Origin: a virus
Length of the DNA stretch: 58,641 nucleotides
Strand: one strand, 5' to 3'
Virus record (IMG/VR): IMGVR_UViG_3300036401_000325
Coordinates: 1-58,641 of that record
How positions within the stretch are numbered: the first letter of the stretch is position 1; every line of letters starts with the position of its first letter. The translations under genes and the position numbers were made by a program. The notes below the pieces were generated by a model. It did no database searches. It worked only from the letters and a program-made list of their open reading frames with translations, and was not told where the DNA came from. This document shows positions 42,744-48,704 of this stretch, in pieces.

Positions 42744-42772
42744 TTGAAGCACGGCGCGCGATTGAATATCTC
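42744..42772 (+). promoter_or_regulatory. Promoter candidate for the second recombinase
   Basis: TTGAAG (42744-42749), 17-nt spacer, TATCTC (42767-42772), 27 nt before ATG 42800. It stands in a 115-nt gap that is otherwise empty of a convincing gene. Confidence 0.45.
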
Positions 42773-42799
42773 GCCATCGAGTCCCGTCGTACCTGGACC

Positions 42800-43744
42800 A
42801 TGCAGACCCGATCTCTCGAAGACGCCTGTCACTCCTACGCCCAACACTCCCGCGCTCCGGGCACGCGCGCCTCGTATCTCCAGAAGATGGTTCCGTTCCG
42901 AGCGTTCTGCGCAGAGCGCGGCGTCAAGGCCGTGCCCGCGGAGCCAGAGACGGTACGCCTCTACCTCGCCAAGCTCGCGGAGAGCGGGCTCTCGGTGTCC
43001 ACCGTGAACCAGTTCCTCTCCGCCATCGGCGAGGCGCACGAGGTCGAGGGGCACCTCTCGCCGCGCTTCCACCCCGCCGTCCAGCAAGTCTGGAAGGGGA
43101 TCCGGCGCACGAAGAAAGTCCGCCAGGTCGGCATGAAACCGCTCCTCGCTGAGCACATCAAGAAGATGCTCGCGGCGACGCCGGACGTGTCGATGCTCAA
43201 CGCGCGCGACCGGGCGATCGTCGTCTTCGGTTGGGCCTGCGCGATGCGGCGTCACGAGGTCGTGGACACGCATGTCGAGCACGTCACGTTCCACGACAAA
43301 GGCTTCACGGTGCTCATTGAGCGCTCGAAGGAGGACCAGGAGGGCAACGGCTTCGAGAAGATGGTCCTCTTCGGGAAGAACCCCGAGACGTGCCCAGTGC
43401 GCATCCTCCAGCGCTGGCTCGCGGTCTCGCGCATCACCGAGGGACCCATCTTCCGTCCGGTGAACCGGTGGGGCCGCGTCGTCCAGTATGGCGAGCAGCA
43501 ACGCCTCTGGCCGCAGTACGTCGAGAAGATCGTCAAGCGCCTGATGACGAACGCCGGCCTCGACCACAAGGGCTACGGCGCCCACTCGCTCCGCGCCGGG
43601 TTCATCACTCAGGCGGCGCTCAACGGGCACACCGAGTCCGAAATCATGCGGCACTCGGGCCACTCGAACACCAAAATCGTGCAGCGGTACATCCGCATCG
43701 CGAACCTCGACAAGCGCAACACCACGGAGGACATGGGCCTGTGA
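42800..43744 (+). CDS. Second tyrosine recombinase (XerC/D-like)
   Basis: 314 aa. N-terminal SAM-like core-binding domain (ACHSYAQHSRAPGTRASYLQ; LSVSTVNQFLSAIGEAHEVE). Catalytic set R150 (CAMRRHE), K177, H262-S-L-R265, H288 (SGHSN) and Y297, all canonical. There is no arm-binding domain. Encoded rightward, apart from the integrase and attP. It could resolve multimers, act on a second site, or be a mobile cargo gene. The stop overlaps the methyltransferase start. Confidence 0.88.
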   Translation: MQTRSLEDACHSYAQHSRAPGTRASYLQKMVPFRAFCAERGVKAVPAEPETVRLYLAKLAESGLSVSTVNQFLSAIGEAHEVEGHLSPRFHPAVQQVWKGIRRTKKVRQVGMKPLLAEHIKKMLAATPDVSMLNARDRAIVVFGWACAMRRHEVVDTHVEHVTFHDKGFTVLIERSKEDQEGNGFEKMVLFGKNPETCPVRILQRWLAVSRITEGPIFRPVNRWGRVVQYGEQQRLWPQYVEKIVKRLMTNAGLDHKGYGAHSLRAGFITQAALNGHTESEIMRHSGHSNTKIVQRYIRIANLDKRNTTEDMGL

Positions 43745-44448
43745 AAGTAGGCTCTCTCTTCACCGGAATTGGAGGCATCGACCTCGGCCTTGAGCTGGCC
43801 GGGGTCGGTTCTCCTATTTGGCAGGTAGAGCAGAGCGACTTTTGCCGGCGTGTGCTTTCCCAACGGTGGAAAGGCATTCCGGTATTCGATGACGTTAGAA
43901 CAGTCGGACAAGCAAACCTCGCCCCAGTGGATCTTGTATGTGGTGGATTCCCCTGCCAGGACCTCTCCAGCGCACGCCGAGACGCTCGCCCTGGCCTTGC
44001 TGGAGAGCGCTCGGGACTCTGGGTGCAGTTCGCTCGTATTCTTGAGGAGCTCTGCCCGCCATGGGCTCTCATCGAGAACGTCGCAAGCGGAGCAAACTAC
44101 TGGATCGACACCGTGGTCGGATCTCTGGAACGGCAAGGCTACCATTGCCTTCCGGTCCCTCTGTCGGCGGCGGATGTCGGCGCTCCGCATGGGAGGGCGC
44201 GCGTTTTCGTCCTTGCTCGCCACCCCGACCGCGACGTGCAACCAGTGGTGCAACAGCATGCGCAAGTGGCCCGGATGTCGAGCATTGCAGGCAGCTTTCC
44301 CGACTGGACCGTCGATCCGTGCATACGAGTGGTTGATGGGATTTCCCCTGGGATGGTTGCCCTAGGAAACGCGGCTATGCCGCAGATGGTCGAAGTGGTC
44401 GGGAGGATGCTTTTGAACCTGGAGGAAGAGTGGCAGACCCAGAAGTGA
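43741..44448 (+). CDS. DNA cytosine-C5 methyltransferase
   Basis: 235 aa from GTG 43741. Motif I is GSLFTGIGGIDLGLELAG, motif IV is GGFPCQDLSSA with the catalytic Cys, motif VI is LIENVAS, motif VIII is GRARVFVLA, and motifs IX-X are RVVDGISPGMVALGNAAMPQ. Shorter than most (usually over 300 aa), with a very small target-recognition region. No partner nuclease is seen. In the +1 frame 43850-44365 is also open and reads like a phage methyltransferase C-terminus; see findings. Confidence 0.88.
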   Translation: MKVGSLFTGIGGIDLGLELAGVGSPIWQVEQSDFCRRVLSQRWKGIPVFDDVRTVGQANLAPVDLVCGGFPCQDLSSARRDARPGLAGERSGLWVQFARILEELCPPWALIENVASGANYWIDTVVGSLERQGYHCLPVPLSAADVGAPHGRARVFVLARHPDRDVQPVVQQHAQVARMSSIAGSFPDWTVDPCIRVVDGISPGMVALGNAAMPQMVEVVGRMLLNLEEEWQTQK

Positions 44449-44798
44449 AGATAGGCTCGACCGTGTGGTTCTTCGACGTGAACCATCGGGTGTACCCAGA
44501 AAAGGAGGGGCGCCACAGTTCTGCCGCGCCAATTTGGCGCGAGCACTGGGTCAGACATCACGTCATCGGAGAAACCTCGCGTTCGTGGTTGGTGGGCAGC
44601 TACCCGAAGGCGGATCCCAAGCTCTGCGCGAAGTGCCCGAAGGCCGAGATCACCACGCGCTACGCTCTGACCGAACTGGAGGTAGACGAGCGCGTTTACT
44701 GCCACGACAACGGATGGCGAATTGCTGAACGAGTACAGAGAATTAAGGACGCGCGCATCCTGCGAGAGGTGGCGCGAATAATTGGGTACTCCCCGTGA
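44430..44798 (+). CDS. Hypothetical protein
   Basis: 122 aa from GTG 44430 with GGAGGAAGA just upstream; GTG 44445 (GTGA) is an alternative start. Ordered sequence (VKIGSTVWFFDVNHRVYPEK; WREHWVRHHVIGETSRSWLV; LCAKCPKAEI). The stop is the first CCGTGAAGCA junction repeat. The function is unknown. Confidence 0.6.
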   Translation: MADPEVKIGSTVWFFDVNHRVYPEKEGRHSSAAPIWREHWVRHHVIGETSRSWLVGSYPKADPKLCAKCPKAEITTRYALTELEVDERVYCHDNGWRIAERVQRIKDARILREVARIIGYSP

Positions 44799-45055
44799 AG
44801 CAGCAAGACACCACAGCTCCGGCGGAGCCCGTCACGCGAACGGCAAATGCTCCACCTATGTGCGACGTGCTCAATTGTGCAGAGGATGCGGCGACCGAGG
44901 TTGACGGCCGTCTTCGACTAAACCCAGGTTTCACCCCCGCGCTGTGGATTGCCGTGGAATTCAATCTGTGTCCCGCGCACGAGGCGGATCACGACGACGC
45001 CTATGGTGAGGTGCTCTCGGTGAGCGCGCCCAAAAAGACCAAGAGGAAACCGTGA
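44795..45055 (+). CDS. Junction-module protein 1 (MKQ-tag, Cys pair)
   Basis: 86 aa. The N-terminus MKQQDTTAPAEPVTRTANAP belongs to the shared tag of this region; the centre has CDVLNCAED and later LCPAHEADHD, a likely zinc site; the C-terminus SAPKKTKRKP resembles that of the 45799 gene. GTG 44795. The function is unknown. Confidence 0.55.
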   Translation: MKQQDTTAPAEPVTRTANAPPMCDVLNCAEDAATEVDGRLRLNPGFTPALWIAVEFNLCPAHEADHDDAYGEVLSVSAPKKTKRKP

Positions 45056-45408
45056 AGCAGCCAGACACCGCTACTCCGACCGAGCCCATCACGGAGGAGG
45101 GGAGTCCTCCACCTACGCGCGATGTCCATTGGCGTCTCACTGAGCTTGTCGATGAGAACTTCGGATACCGCTCGACGATGCCCGTCGAGGAACTGTTGAC
45201 CGTCCTGGAGACGGAGGTCCCCGCCGTCGTAAAGACGCTGGAGGCCGTCGGGGAGGCGGCTTGGTCCTTCACCGAGCTGGACGTCGAACACACGATCTCG
45301 TGTCACGCCGACTCGCTCCCGGAAGCGTACCGGCGCGCATGCGCGGTCATCGACAAGGTCCGCGAACTCACCAGCGCGGACCTCGAACAGATTGAGCGTG
45401 CCCCGTGA
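45052..45408 (+). CDS. Junction-module protein 2 (MKQ-tag)
   Basis: 118 aa. Shared N-terminal tag (MKQPDTATPTEPITEEGSPP) then a helical protein (PVEELLTVLETEVPAVVKTL; YRRACAVIDKVRELTSADLE). GTG start in the second CCGTGAAGCA junction. The function is unknown. Confidence 0.55.
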   Translation: MKQPDTATPTEPITEEGSPPPTRDVHWRLTELVDENFGYRSTMPVEELLTVLETEVPAVVKTLEAVGEAAWSFTELDVEHTISCHADSLPEAYRRACAVIDKVRELTSADLEQIERAP

Positions 45409-45464
45409 AGCAACATCTGCCGGCTGTCCGAAACTACCCCGACACGAGAGAGGGAATCTTTTGA
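45405..45464 (+). CDS. 19-aa micro-ORF A in junction repeat
   Basis: MKQHLPAVRNYPDTREGIF. The GTG start overlaps the previous TGA (GTGA), and its TGA overlaps the next TTG start (TTGA). It has exactly the length of two relatives at 46389 and 46684, with the pattern MKQ, PD near position 12-13 and a charged -I- end. The last codons contain a GAGAGAGGG purine run that would be the ribosome-binding site of the next gene. Confidence 0.5.
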   Translation: MKQHLPAVRNYPDTREGIF

Positions 45465-45802
45465 CCAAGAATTCAGCAATCGACGCCGCGTATGATGCTC
45501 TCGAAGGACGCATCGGCTCGGGGCACGATGACAACGCCAAGGCGGAGCTCGTGCGCTGGGTGTGCGAGGCGTACGTGCGAACCGAAGACGCGCTCGCGGG
45601 CGACGAGTTCGACGGGGACGATTACGAGCTACCGAAGGCCGCGGAGGCGCTCGTCAAGCAACGGGATAATGCGCGCGACGAATACGAAGCGTTGGCGGAA
45701 GAGCTGGCCACGCTGTTCGGGCTAGAGGGCGAACGCCGAACCGGCGAGCACATCGTGACGTGTGCGAAGGAAGCCCTGCGCCAGCTTCGGCGGGATAGGT
45801 GA
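45461..45802 (+). CDS. Hypothetical acidic helical protein
   Basis: 113 aa from TTG 45461 (MTKNSAIDAAYDALEGRIGS). Helical and acidic, ending in EHIVTCAKEALRQLRRDR. Its start is set by the micro-ORF overlap. The function is unknown. Confidence 0.55.
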   Translation: MTKNSAIDAAYDALEGRIGSGHDDNAKAELVRWVCEAYVRTEDALAGDEFDGDDYELPKAAEALVKQRDNARDEYEALAEELATLFGLEGERRTGEHIVTCAKEALRQLRRDR

Positions 45803-46392
45803 GCGCGCCCGTGAAAGACCAAACCCGCCCCGTGAAGCATCCCAGCGAGCCCGACACTACAGAACCCGTCACGGCGGAGGCGAGCCCTCCGCCCATCTCC
45901 GACCACCTGACGGCTCTCGGAATCGAGACGTGCATCCACTGCGAGGGGCCGCGGTCAGCGCATCGGGGACCGATGTGGTGGTGCTGGGAGCGCACAACGT
46001 TCTTCGAGGCAGGGCCGACCCGGGCGCAGCTCACGGAAGCGCTCGCTCGCGCTGAGGCGAAGGTGACGCGGCTCTACGCTCGTGGCGTTGACACGACGTC
46101 GGCGCTCCGAGATGAGAGAGACTTCTGCGGCAATCTGAGCAGGCTTTCGATCGCCGTCGTCGAGGACTGCGACGCCGAGAGCGCTCGCCTCCGGAGGACT
46201 CTCGTGCGGCTCTACGACGCCACCACGGCATACTTCCTCCACAATGGTGCCGAGCACGAGACGGAAGATTGTCCGGAGGACGACACCTGCGAATGCCAGT
46301 TGGTGAACGCGGTCAACGAGGCGTTCGCTGCGGCGCTCCCGCTAGTCGAAGACAAGGTGAGCACGCCCAAGAAAGCTGCGGTGCAACCGTGA
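45799..46392 (+). CDS. Junction-module protein 3 (MKDQ/VKH tag)
   Basis: 197 aa from GTG 45799; GTG 45811 (MKDQTRPVKHP) is an alternative matched by the gene at 47072. After the tag (PSEPDTTEPVTAEASPPP) comes CIHCEGPRSAHRGPMWWCWE, a Cys-containing domain, then a long helix and a tail ending STPKKAAVQP like gene 44795. The function is unknown. Confidence 0.55.
   Translation: MSAPVKDQTRPVKHPSEPDTTEPVTAEASPPPISDHLTALGIETCIHCEGPRSAHRGPMWWCWERTTFFEAGPTRAQLTEALARAEAKVTRLYARGVDTTSALRDERDFCGNLSRLSIAVVEDCDAESARLRRTLVRLYDATTAYFLHNGAEHETEDCPEDDTCECQLVNAVNEAFAAALPLVEDKVSTPKKAAVQP
45812..45843 (+). repeat. 32-nt junction repeat, copy 1
   Basis: It begins TGAAAGACC and contains CCCGCCCCGTGAAGCAT. It matches 47073-47104 at 29 of 32 positions. 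The inner CCGTGAAGCA decamer occurs seven times (44793, 45050, 45403, 45830, 46387, 46682, 47091), almost always at a stop/start junction. Confidence 0.7.
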
Positions 46393-46448
46393 AGCAACAC
46401 GAACCGGCAGACCAGGCGAAGCCCGACATGAGAAAGGCAATCCGATGA
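46389..46448 (+). CDS. 19-aa micro-ORF B in junction repeat
   Basis: MKQHEPADQAKPDMRKAIR. Starts by GTGA overlap and ends by ATGA overlap with the next gene. Same length and pattern as micro-ORFs A and C. GAGAAAGG near its end is a plausible ribosome-binding site for ATG 46445. Confidence 0.5.
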   Translation: MKQHEPADQAKPDMRKAIR

Positions 46449-46687
46449 GCGAGAAGAAGTCACACGGGCCCGAATGCGTTTGCTACGTCGGCGGCCCCGG
46501 AGAGCCTTACTATAAGCCGTTCATCGAGTGCATTTGCGGCTGGCACACGGTGAACGGGGGCGTCTACTCCTGGGAGGAGGCTGGCGCGGAATTCGACGAA
46601 CACCTAACTAGCGTCGATGCGAAAAGACAGGTGGAAGCAAAAAGAGCACGCGAGAGACGCCAACGCGGGAAGGAGTCGCGGCCGTGA
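46445..46687 (+). CDS. Small Cys-containing protein
   Basis: 80 aa. CVCYVGGPGEPYYKPFIECI then CGWHTVNGG suggests a zinc site; EEAGAEFDEHLTSVDAKRQV is a helix with an Arg-rich end. Flanked by micro-ORFs B and C. The function is unknown. Confidence 0.55.
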   Translation: MSEKKSHGPECVCYVGGPGEPYYKPFIECICGWHTVNGGVYSWEEAGAEFDEHLTSVDAKRQVEAKRARERRQRGKESRP

Positions 46688-46743
46688 AGCAACGTGTGCT
46701 CGCTATCCGAAAAGACCCCGACAAGAAAGAGGCAATCCGTTGA
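46684..46743 (+). CDS. 19-aa micro-ORF C in junction repeat
   Basis: MKQRVLAIRKDPDKKEAIR. Starts by GTGA overlap, ends by TTGA overlap. Identical length and similar sequence to micro-ORFs A and B. AAGAAAGAGG near its end precedes TTG 46740. Confidence 0.5.
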   Translation: MKQRVLAIRKDPDKKEAIR

Positions 46744-47075
46744 CTCAGCAAGAGATCGACATGGTCGAAGACGAGGAAGGTGCTCGGTGGCAGGAGCGCA
46801 TCGAGCAAACGATCCGACGCGCGGGCCTCATGCCGTGTGATGCCTCTGGATGTGATAGCGGTGACCCGCTCGACTGGAGCGACACGCAAATCGGTCACGC
46901 TTTGAACGAGCAAAATGACCGTATCGATGAGCTGCGAATGATGCTGGCGCGCGCCCTGGGCACGATCGTGGGACTGCGTGCGCATGTGCCCGTCGGGCAC
47001 TCCGCGCGAGACGCTGCAGACGAGTGTGCCGATGCTTGCACGAAAGTGCTGGAACAAGGTGGCGCCGATCTATGA
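46740..47075 (+). CDS. Hypothetical helical protein
   Basis: 111 aa from TTG 46740 (MTQQEIDMVEDEEGARWQER). Helical, with ALNEQNDRIDELRMMLARAL and a C-terminal Asp/Cys-containing segment. Coupled to the 38-aa zinc peptide. The function is unknown. Confidence 0.55.
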   Translation: MTQQEIDMVEDEEGARWQERIEQTIRRAGLMPCDASGCDSGDPLDWSDTQIGHALNEQNDRIDELRMMLARALGTIVGLRAHVPVGHSARDAADECADACTKVLEQGGADL

Positions 47076-47188
47076 AAGACCAGCCCCGCCCCGTGAAGCA
47101 TTCCGTCCACCGGGCCGCCGACTACTGGCGCTGCTATGCCTGCGGCGCGCTCCACTCTTGGAGGATGACCCGATGCCCGAATCGCTGA
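47072..47188 (+). CDS. 38-aa zinc-knuckle peptide with MKDQ/VKH tag
   Basis: MKDQPRPVKHSVHRAADYWR then CYACGALHSWRMTRCPNR. The tag equals that of the 45799 gene, and CxxC plus a later Cys may bind zinc. ATG overlaps the previous stop (ATGA). Overlaps the next gene by 16 nt. Confidence 0.5.
   Translation: MKDQPRPVKHSVHRAADYWRCYACGALHSWRMTRCPNR
47073..47104 (+). repeat. 32-nt junction repeat, copy 2
   Basis: Matches 45812-45843 at 29 of 32 positions. It encodes the same KDQxRPVKH peptide in both genes. Confidence 0.7.
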
Positions 47189-47526
47189 ATGTCCCGATGC
47201 CAAGTGACACCGACGTCGAAGACATCTGCGAACGGATCCGCGCCTTGCAGGCCGCGACTGCCGGGGGAGCGCCGGGCCTCACGGTCGCCGTCCGTTCCGC
47301 CATCCACAAGCGCGATGTCGAAATCTCCGCTCTCCGCTCGCAACTGGGGCGTGCGATGGAGGCGTTGCGGGTCGTCTCTCAGGCGCCCGCATACGAGGCA
47401 TGGGCTCGCGAACTCTGCGCACAGGACCCATCGATACCGATGAAACTGACGATGCGAGTCGACGAGTTCATTCCGATGCTGGACCTCCTCCGCGAGCTTG
47501 CCGGCGGCGAAGGAGAACCCAAGTGA
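47173..47526 (+). CDS. Hypothetical helical protein
   Basis: 117 aa from ATG 47173, GGAGGATGACCCG just upstream. Helical (VEDICERIRALQAATAGGAP; KRDVEISALRSQLGRAMEAL; FIPMLDLLRELAGG). The function is unknown. Confidence 0.6.
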   Translation: MPESLNVPMPSDTDVEDICERIRALQAATAGGAPGLTVAVRSAIHKRDVEISALRSQLGRAMEALRVVSQAPAYEAWARELCAQDPSIPMKLTMRVDEFIPMLDLLRELAGGEGEPK

Positions 47527-47711
47527 GCTACATGACGTTCGGCGACAGTCTGGTAATGCTCCTGCGTTGCACCCCAGGGACGCCGCTGCATGCCATCGCG
47601 AGGTCCGCGGCAAGGCGAGTGGTCACGGAGCTCTATTACGCGGAATGTCGCGAGGCTCAAAAGCGCCGCGATAAGTGGCTGGCAATCATCAACCGAGACA
47701 GCGGCACTTGA
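47523..47711 (+). CDS. Small hypothetical protein
   Basis: 62 aa from GTG 47523 (GTGA). MSYMTFGDSLVMLLRCTPGT then a basic helix (AIARSAARRVVTELYYAECR). The function is unknown. Confidence 0.5.
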   Translation: MSYMTFGDSLVMLLRCTPGTPLHAIARSAARRVVTELYYAECREAQKRRDKWLAIINRDSGT

Positions 47712-47738
47712 GCTTGCCGGCGGCGAAGGGGGGACGTG

Positions 47739-47888
47739 ATGCTAAGGCGCTCTCTCATCATGACCGGTATCGGTTGGGTCCTCAGCGGCTCCGGTATGTT
47801 CCTTCATGCTCACTCGTTCCTGTGGCTCGGCGGGATCGCGCTCGGGATGGGCGGAGCGATGCTTGCCGAGTGGCTGGGGGAGACTTGA
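47739..47888 (+). CDS. Small two-span membrane protein
   Basis: 49 aa: MLRRSLIMTGIGWVLSGSGM, then FLHAHSFLWLGGIALGMGGA and MLAEWLGET. Two short hydrophobic spans, N-terminal positive charges. AAGGGGGGACG lies just upstream; a GTG three bases earlier is in frame. Could be a holin-like or other membrane protein of the rightward operon. Confidence 0.55.
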   Translation: MLRRSLIMTGIGWVLSGSGMFLHAHSFLWLGGIALGMGGAMLAEWLGET

Positions 47889-47922
47889 CCCGCATCCTCC
47901 CCAAGTCGGGCCGGGGCGGGGA

Positions 47923-48111
47923 GTGACCGACCTGCCGCGTCTCGTCCGCGCCTGCCGCGGTGTCATCGCAGAGAGAGACCTCGTCACGCCGTGCTGTCGC
48001 CTCACGCCGGAGCTGCGCGCGTACCTGCTTTGGTGCCCGTGCGGGAAGGCGTACGGGAAGCTGGCGGAGTTGGTAGCCGTCGAACGCAAAACGCCCCCTG
48101 CCACGCCGTAG
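47923..48111 (+). CDS. Small Cys-containing protein, last rightward gene
   Basis: 62 aa from GTG 47923. PCCRLTPELRAYLLWCPCGK gives four Cys for zinc. A 13-aa ORF (TTG 47885) bridges it to the previous gene. It ends inside the convergent hairpin. The function is unknown. Confidence 0.5.
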   Translation: MTDLPRLVRACRGVIAERDLVTPCCRLTPELRAYLLWCPCGKAYGKLAELVAVERKTPPATP

Positions 48112-48124
48112 CGCAACAGGGGGC
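48093..48124. terminator. Convergent hairpin terminator
   Basis: GCCCCCTG (48093-48100) pairs with CAGGGGGC (48117-48124). On the minus strand it is followed by GTTTTG, favouring leftward termination. It separates the rightward early operon from the leftward fibre/lysis operon. Confidence 0.6.
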
Positions 48125-48161
48125 AATTCCGACCGAGGACGGGCGGGGGCTACGAATGCGG

Positions 48162-48704
48162 TCACTCGCCACCCGGCCGCGACGGCATTCTCCGTCTCGG
48201 CGGCGCCAGCGGGTCCGACCCAAGTTCCCGCTGTGCGATCAACCCCTGCACTTGACGGAATCGTTCCGGTCCAGACAGGCCAGCGATCTCCAAGTGGATC
48301 GCGCCAGCGTCGCTACGGATCTCATGACGGGTCGAGCGGATGTCCTCATGCAGGTCGTCGGCGACGGTGTTGAGCTGTTGCGGGAGCGCAGCAATCCCGG
48401 ACACGAGCTGGCGAAGTAGCTCCGTCTGCTTCGTCTGTTCGATCAGGCTTTGGCGAGCCAGGTGCGCTTCGGTGCGCTCCTCTTCCTGCTCCTGCAATTT
48501 CTCGACGACGACGGCCGCCACTGAGGACGGGGACATGCTGCGCTTATACGCGGGCACGTTCATATAAGAAGGCGGCTCGGGCGGTCGCTCCGGTCGCTGT
48601 ATGACCGTGCGCCACACAGACGGCCCGTACTTGACGAGCAGGCCGCCAACAGCCGTGGCGGACATGACGAGGCCGGTGACGAAACCGGTATCGGTGGGGC
48701 TCAC
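48162..48704 (-). CDS. Inner-membrane spanin-like protein
   Basis: 180 aa. One N-terminal membrane span (TGFVTGLVMSATAVGGLLV) followed by a Pro-rich linker and a long coiled coil (VVVEKLQEQEEERTEAHLAR; LRQLVSGIAALPQQLNTVAD). The layout (short N-inside span plus periplasmic coil) is that of i-spanins, and it is the last gene after the amidase. GTG 48704 (GTGA). The role is inferred. Confidence 0.55.
   Translation of the reverse strand: MSPTDTGFVTGLVMSATAVGGLLVKYGPSVWRTVIQRPERPPEPPSYMNVPAYKRSMSPSSVAAVVVEKLQEQEEERTEAHLARQSLIEQTKQTELLRQLVSGIAALPQQLNTVADDLHEDIRSTRHEIRSDAGAIHLEIAGLSGPERFRQVQGLIAQRELGSDPLAPPRRRMPSRPGGE

Follow-up and report, generated by a model that had tools for sequence, protein, structure and literature searches.

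A repeated unit at the gene junctions of a phage array

The window analysed here is the whole 58,641-nucleotide (nt) stretch of the IMG/VR virus record IMGVR_UViG_3300036401_000325, whose gene set is that of a contractile-tail phage. Just downstream of its integrase gene lies an array of small accessory genes, and a short repeat recurs at the junctions between them. This repeat, the junction unit, is the subject of the present analysis; it occurs in two forms, A and B, and carries an open reading frame (ORF) or part of one. The features of the region are the following.

42744..42799, + strand: core TTGAAGCA; the integrase start follows 56 nt downstream, and the block that blastn shows to be conserved among phages has its left edge here
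42800..43744, + strand: tyrosine recombinase (integrase), 314 amino acids (Pfam PF00589)
43741..44448, + strand: C5-cytosine DNA methylase, first cargo gene (family match)
44793..44858, + strand: junction unit, form B; the leader runs in frame into gene 44795-45055
45017..45115, + strand: junction unit, form B; upstream half GGTGAGCGCGCCC... present, leader continuous with gene 45052-45408
45403..45464, + strand: junction unit, form A; micro-ORF 45405-45464, exit Shine-Dalgarno site, TTG start at 45461
45461..45802, + strand: accessory gene, 113 amino acids
45797..45893, + strand: junction unit, form B; upstream half present, leader belonging to gene 45811-46392
46354..46448, + strand: junction unit, form A; micro-ORF 46389-46448, next start (ATG) at 46445
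46445..46687, + strand: accessory gene, 80 amino acids
46682..46743, + strand: junction unit, form A; micro-ORF 46684-46743, next start (TTG) at 46740
46740..47075, + strand: accessory gene, 111 amino acids
47055..47111, + strand: diverged junction unit, inside the start of a 38-amino-acid ORF, 47072-47188 (MKDQPRPVKH...)
47489..47516, + strand: second linker family, GAGCTTGCCGGCGGCGAAGG, as C-terminal tail of gene 47173-47526
47893..47926, + strand: third linker family, CCCAAGTCGGGCCGGGGYGGGG, as C-terminal tail LPKSGRGGE* before the next GTG start

The unit is centred on the decamer CCGTGAAGCA, of which the window holds seven copies, all on the + strand, against 0.14 expected; none of 100 shuffles reached this count. 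An earlier note, made from the letters alone, had located seven copies, and every one was found where it had placed it. The note had also described them as lying nearly always where one gene stops and the next begins. This holds for five of the seven, in which the TGA within GTGAAGCA ends an upstream ORF of at least 80 codons; at the copies at 45832 and 47093 the TGA closes no such ORF and the decamer sits about 20 nt within a MKDQxRPVKH start. Three copies (45405, 46389 and 46684) open 60-nt ORFs that do encode the 19-residue peptides read from them in the note, with GTG taken as M, and an independent repeat search returned the same three as one family, D1, with 68-81 % identity. The 60 nt count the stop codon, and the next gene starts at unit position 57 through a TTGA or ATGA overlap. 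The gap between full genes, put at 60 nt in the note, is 52 nt from upstream stop to next start at form-A junctions.

The copies at 44795, 45052 and 45832 are not micro-ORFs; there the same leader continues, without a change of frame, into a full gene. One element thus takes two forms, A with the micro-ORF and B with the fused leader. It consists of an upstream half of about 33 nt (GGTGAGCG..., with a beginning GGTGAGC common to many copies), the 10-bp core and a leader of about 50 nt. The core contains a GTG start, and its TGA is usually the stop of the preceding gene. Form B provides a shared N-terminus (...EPVTAEASPPP...) that is read straight into the next gene; form A provides 19 codons and then a Shine-Dalgarno site and an overlapping TTG or ATG at unit position 57. 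Constant across the unit are the TGARGCA core, the Shine-Dalgarno site and start at position 57, and a near-constant length. The TGAAGC core is identical in 24 of 24 units and the flanks diverge, an invariance that is partly due to the choice of units, most of the 24 having been picked for containing the core.

Shared junctions and the genes between them

Five phage contigs, all metagenomic, were compared: the window, G001, G006, G007 and G008. G001 was found through its portal protein (98 % identity; terminase 61 %) and the other three through the integrase just upstream of the array; portal and terminase homologues of the window are not detectable in these three. All four relatives carry the element or its GTGAGGCA variant directly downstream of the integrase and nowhere else. 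Exact decamers, present in the array only, number seven in the window, two in G001, four in G006 and seven in G007, and G008 has five copies of a CCGTGAGGCA variant in the same place downstream of its integrase.

What these phages have in common along the array is the junctions. Among the four arrays with the GTGAAGCA form (the window, G001 at locus L048, G006 at L052 and G007 at L053), all 32 blastn matches at E <= 0.001 are linkers: 28 are junction units and 4 belong to two other linkers at gene ends. One further match, between L053 and L054, falls outside this set. No gene-body match was obtained among the four arrays at the same threshold. The unit at 45403..45464 has 87 % identity over 45 nt to G001, and the window and the fetched loci L052 and L053 have only the integrase gene and junction units in common. 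At the protein level, matches between array proteins of different phages correspond to shared leader stretches of 20-36 residues, and one weak match of 58 residues also starts at the leader. The same short sequence thus stands in different genomes with non-homologous genes in between, the pattern of a gene-boundary linker. The proposal in the earlier note that the repeat is a recombination linker for swapping accessory genes gains strong support from these junctions common to phages with different genes between them.

The cargo is varied. G001 has a different C5 methylase at the position of the window methylase (43741..44448), array cargo includes pentapeptide and helix-turn-helix (HTH) proteins, L053 carries a T4 Rnl2-like RNA ligase and L052 carries QueC and a radical S-adenosylmethionine (SAM) protein. 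The last two genes (L052 11753-13104; the radical SAM gene is probably QueE) lie directly downstream of the integrase and suggest 7-deazaguanine DNA modification.

The two sides of the unit show separate histories. Over 20 units, distances in the upstream half and in the leader are uncorrelated (r = -0.12); odd/even split halves within segments are correlated (r = 0.39-0.47, p = 0.0003), p-values that serve as a guide only, the units being related and not independent. In sliding windows, linkage is lost across the core and lost again near +30. The units at L048 5963 and L053 1404 have a nearly identical upstream half, GGTGAGCGGATCTACATGGCAYCC, and different downstream forms. This statistical evidence indicates that sequence to the left and to the right of the decamer has been reassorted, as far as comparison of the units can tell.

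Outside the four arrays with the GTGAAGCA form, L054 11893-13234 holds a GTGAGGCAGTCTG junction unit, with an upstream half of its own, in at least five copies. G002, which has a related portal (67 %), contains no decamer; its portal homologue (G002:C1:25363-26832) contains a single TAA in frame, which is either genuine or due to a sequencing error. A search of phage records gave no DNA relatives of the array, and neither array gene 45052 nor the helicase, used as queries, gave any relatives. Gene 46445 has one good homologue, in L008, which stands without the 60-nt unit, and two weak ones. A degenerate pattern of the 60-nt unit matched nothing in viral contigs; we judge it too strict, because relatives found later do carry the unit. 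Bacterial genomes searched with the integrase yielded no relatives and therefore no host could be named.

Translation signals and the 19-residue frame

The start of the gene that follows a form-A unit is well equipped for translation. The exit Shine-Dalgarno site pairs at a mean of -9.5 kcal/mol versus -3.9 at random array positions (p = 1e-5). At the entry GTG the site is weak (mean -4.9), and this start usually shares bases with the stop codon of the preceding gene; the combination is consistent with translational coupling. The window contributes three form-A units, G001 one and L053 six, and nine of these ten have the stop-start overlap at position 57; the remaining unit, L053 3236, has a GTG at position 58. 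With a start that overlaps the leader stop and a Shine-Dalgarno site inside the leader, the unit has the layout of a coupling leader, and ribosomes presumably re-initiate at the exit start. Form-A length is 60 nt in 9/10 units, and indels in the 57-nt leader occur in 1 of 20 units; lengths of the upstream half vary (24, 33, 34 and 35 nt). We weighed and rejected the idea that a hairpin of form-B leaders, GGAGGCGAGTCCTCC, acts as a Shine-Dalgarno trap: it is missing from some copies and not in the consensus.

The earlier note had offered two roles for the micro-ORF, a translation relay and a small peptide family. The 19-codon frame is open in eight of the ten form-A units. L053 4176 has a TAG at codon 14. 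L053 3236 has stops at codons 4 (TGA) and 15 (TAA) as well as a one-base insertion, and in it an almost perfect Shine-Dalgarno site, TAAGGAGG, precedes an in-frame GTG. Both broken-frame leaders retain strong exit sites. Together with L048 6818, classed as form B, which stops after 14 codons and restarts immediately, they partly bear out what the note had named as evidence against itself, spacers without a conserved frame in related genomes. Because another frame is open in 10/10 units, an open micro-ORF frame means little. Pairwise ratios of nonsynonymous to synonymous differences (pN/pS) over the ten units, a small sample, are 0.90 in the coding frame versus 0.81 and 0.81 in the other two; the three frames being alike, nothing indicates that the peptide is under selection. 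The relay idea thus keeps its strong exit site, its overlaps and its near-constant length and loses the intact frame in two of ten units, and the peptide family is not borne out. The conserved residues of the 19-mers follow, on comparison of the units, from DNA homology; the peptides are most likely a by-product of the linker, forming no peptide family, and are probably under no selection.

Probable gene swapping at the linkers and the place of the integrase

We consider it probable that the repeat is a translation-start-bearing gene-boundary linker in a hypervariable accessory array just downstream of a phage integrase. Small genes would be swapped by recombination at the linkers, presumably of a homologous or near-homologous kind. 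An incoming gene would stay coupled to its upstream neighbour and be translated because the linker brings the start signals with it. Several points weigh against this reading. The comparison set is small, and we infer exchange from shared linkers with different cargo; neither the same cassette in two positions nor an empty and filled pair was caught among the five contigs. Family matches are absent for most window cargo genes, some of which may not be real genes. Similarity among the units is mostly only 60-80 %, a low value for present-day recombination of the RecA type; given this divergence, the exchanges may be old or may have proceeded via a phage annealing recombinase. Finally, leader length is constrained, so that reading through the micro-ORF may have some role.

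The integrase is the only gene near the array conserved in 5/5 phages, and in all five a core lies 53-56 nt upstream of its start. Only in the window and G001 does this start coincide with unit position 57; in the other three it follows the core at a distance of 53 nt. The block conserved around it begins exactly at TGAAGCA, 42745 (blastn: L048, L051, L052, L055). It is therefore natural to ask whether the array is site-specific, the adjacent tyrosine recombinase cutting the TGARGCA core to add or remove cassettes, integron-like with unrelated parts. This would be a phage-borne, non-integron form of gene capture at a core that doubles as start codon, so that captured genes land translated. We regard it as unlikely. 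The strongest point in its favour is that the conserved block begins, on its left, exactly with the core. It is joined by the common TGAGGCA of the integrase-proximal and array cores in G008, by the break in linkage across the core, and by the joint presence of integrase and array in five of five phages, though in three of them no portal or terminase in common with the window was detected. Yet no inverted arms were seen around the core, no consensus structure or conserved base pairs were found across the units, and the right boundary of the integrase is a bare stop-start TGA without the decamer; the second break near +30 moreover speaks against a single fixed crossover. The recombinase is also not IntI (TIGR02249, 19.9 bits against a cut-off of 265), and its relatives are common on plasmids. 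An integron proper was rejected, the IntI model, the consensus structure and attC-like bottom-strand folds of the repeats (no better than shuffles, z -0.87 to 2.15) all being negative. The integrase (42800-43744) matches recombinases on 2222 plasmid records, at up to about 41 % identity, versus 7 named phage records. Because these matches are mostly to plasmid records, the phages with integrase and array may be plasmid-like prophages.

Three further explanations leave recombination at the junctions aside. The core might be a start-associated regulatory motif that binds the ribosome, a regulator or a small RNA, copied by selection and marking no exchange points. An invariant core at translation starts within diverging flanks is what one would then see, as in the start-associated sequence (SAS) of Cluster K mycobacteriophages (PMC3203893); the invariance owes something to how the units were chosen, however, and the account does not explain why the flanks are long and homologous, why sequence is reassorted across the core or why a core stands upstream of the integrase start, so that we give it little chance. 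A functional 19-residue peptide family, or a relay that needs micro-ORF translation, would suit the eight open frames and the 60-nt length but is very improbable in view of the absent codon-level constraint, the alternative frame open throughout, the in-frame stops in L053 4176 and 3236, the latter with TAAGGAGG instead, and the L008 homologue of gene 46445 that lacks the unit. Tandem duplication alone, from one ancestral gene whose copies can now be recognised only at their 5' ends, is the most improbable of all: form-B leader peptides are mostly about 50-76 % identical and the L053 units resemble each other, but the downstream proteins have no residual similarity within or between phages and the cargo is diverse (methylases, QueC, RNA ligase, HTH and pentapeptide proteins).

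Lambdoid phages have short conserved boundary (linker) sequences that are proposed to promote module exchange. A related case is Island3, whose genes 67 and 68 have shared 18-residue tails (PMC3029335). The junction unit is like both in placing short homologies at gene boundaries with a proposed module exchange, and unlike them in its many copies in one array, its presence in phages with different virion genes and its built-in start signals. In T4-type phages, the promoter early stem-loop (PeSL) elements are mobile regulatory cassettes proposed to mediate gene shuffling (PMC4503421). As there described, they too are repeated between small genes of a hyperplastic region, but they consist of an early promoter and a stem-loop, whereas the window cassette carries translation starts and Shine-Dalgarno sites and no conserved fold was found in it. 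The SAS motif, 13 bp long, occurs genome-wide at the ribosome-binding position upstream of starts (PMC3203893); it resembles the unit as a short repeated motif at starts of genes from different families, mostly in one orientation. The unit differs from it in a core that contains the start codon or lies 53-56 nt upstream, in long homologous flanks and in its confinement to one array. Integrons have been reported in phages (PMC9892861) and also place a tyrosine recombinase before an array of small cargo genes separated by repeats; here the integrase is not IntI, there is no attC-like fold, and the repeat sits at gene starts and conserves sequence over structure. We class the unit as a gene-boundary linker because the defining features of PeSL, SAS and integrons that were tested are not found in it. 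By analogy, it would work like a PeSL cassette or a lambdoid boundary sequence supplied with translation signals. The statement in the earlier note that no system of this form is described was too strong, since PeSL cassettes, SAS and boundary sequences are close in kind.

Many proposals make boundary sequences the drivers of phage mosaicism, but such sequences are rarely seen in that role, and they are not identifiable at most boundaries (PMC3029335). Many copies in one array, common to phages with different virion genes, make the idea of exchange at boundaries directly testable. The arrangement also suggests how a swapped gene may be expressed at once, the start signals arriving with the linker, and the constant integrase beside changing cargo raises the question of the recombinase's part.

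Two more linker families accompany the junction unit. GAGCTTGCCGGCGGCGAAGG occurs in the window at 47489-47516 and 47710-47748 and at L048 7320-7362; in one place it encodes the tail ELAGGEG of a gene, and in another it is apparently an untranslated leader with a Shine-Dalgarno site before GTGATG. Its 20-mer in L057 and L058 was discarded as a linker, being a chance mid-gene match. The third family, CCCAAGTCGGGCCGGGGYGGG, is found at 47893-47926 in the window and at L048 7926-7952 and 8144-8170, and gives the tail PKSGRGG(E)* to unrelated genes. At the array end, between convergent gene sets, lies a GCCCCCTG...CAGGGGGC hairpin (window 48093-48165, L048 9502-9547); it resembles a terminator, and the sequence near it is about 90 % conserved in G001.

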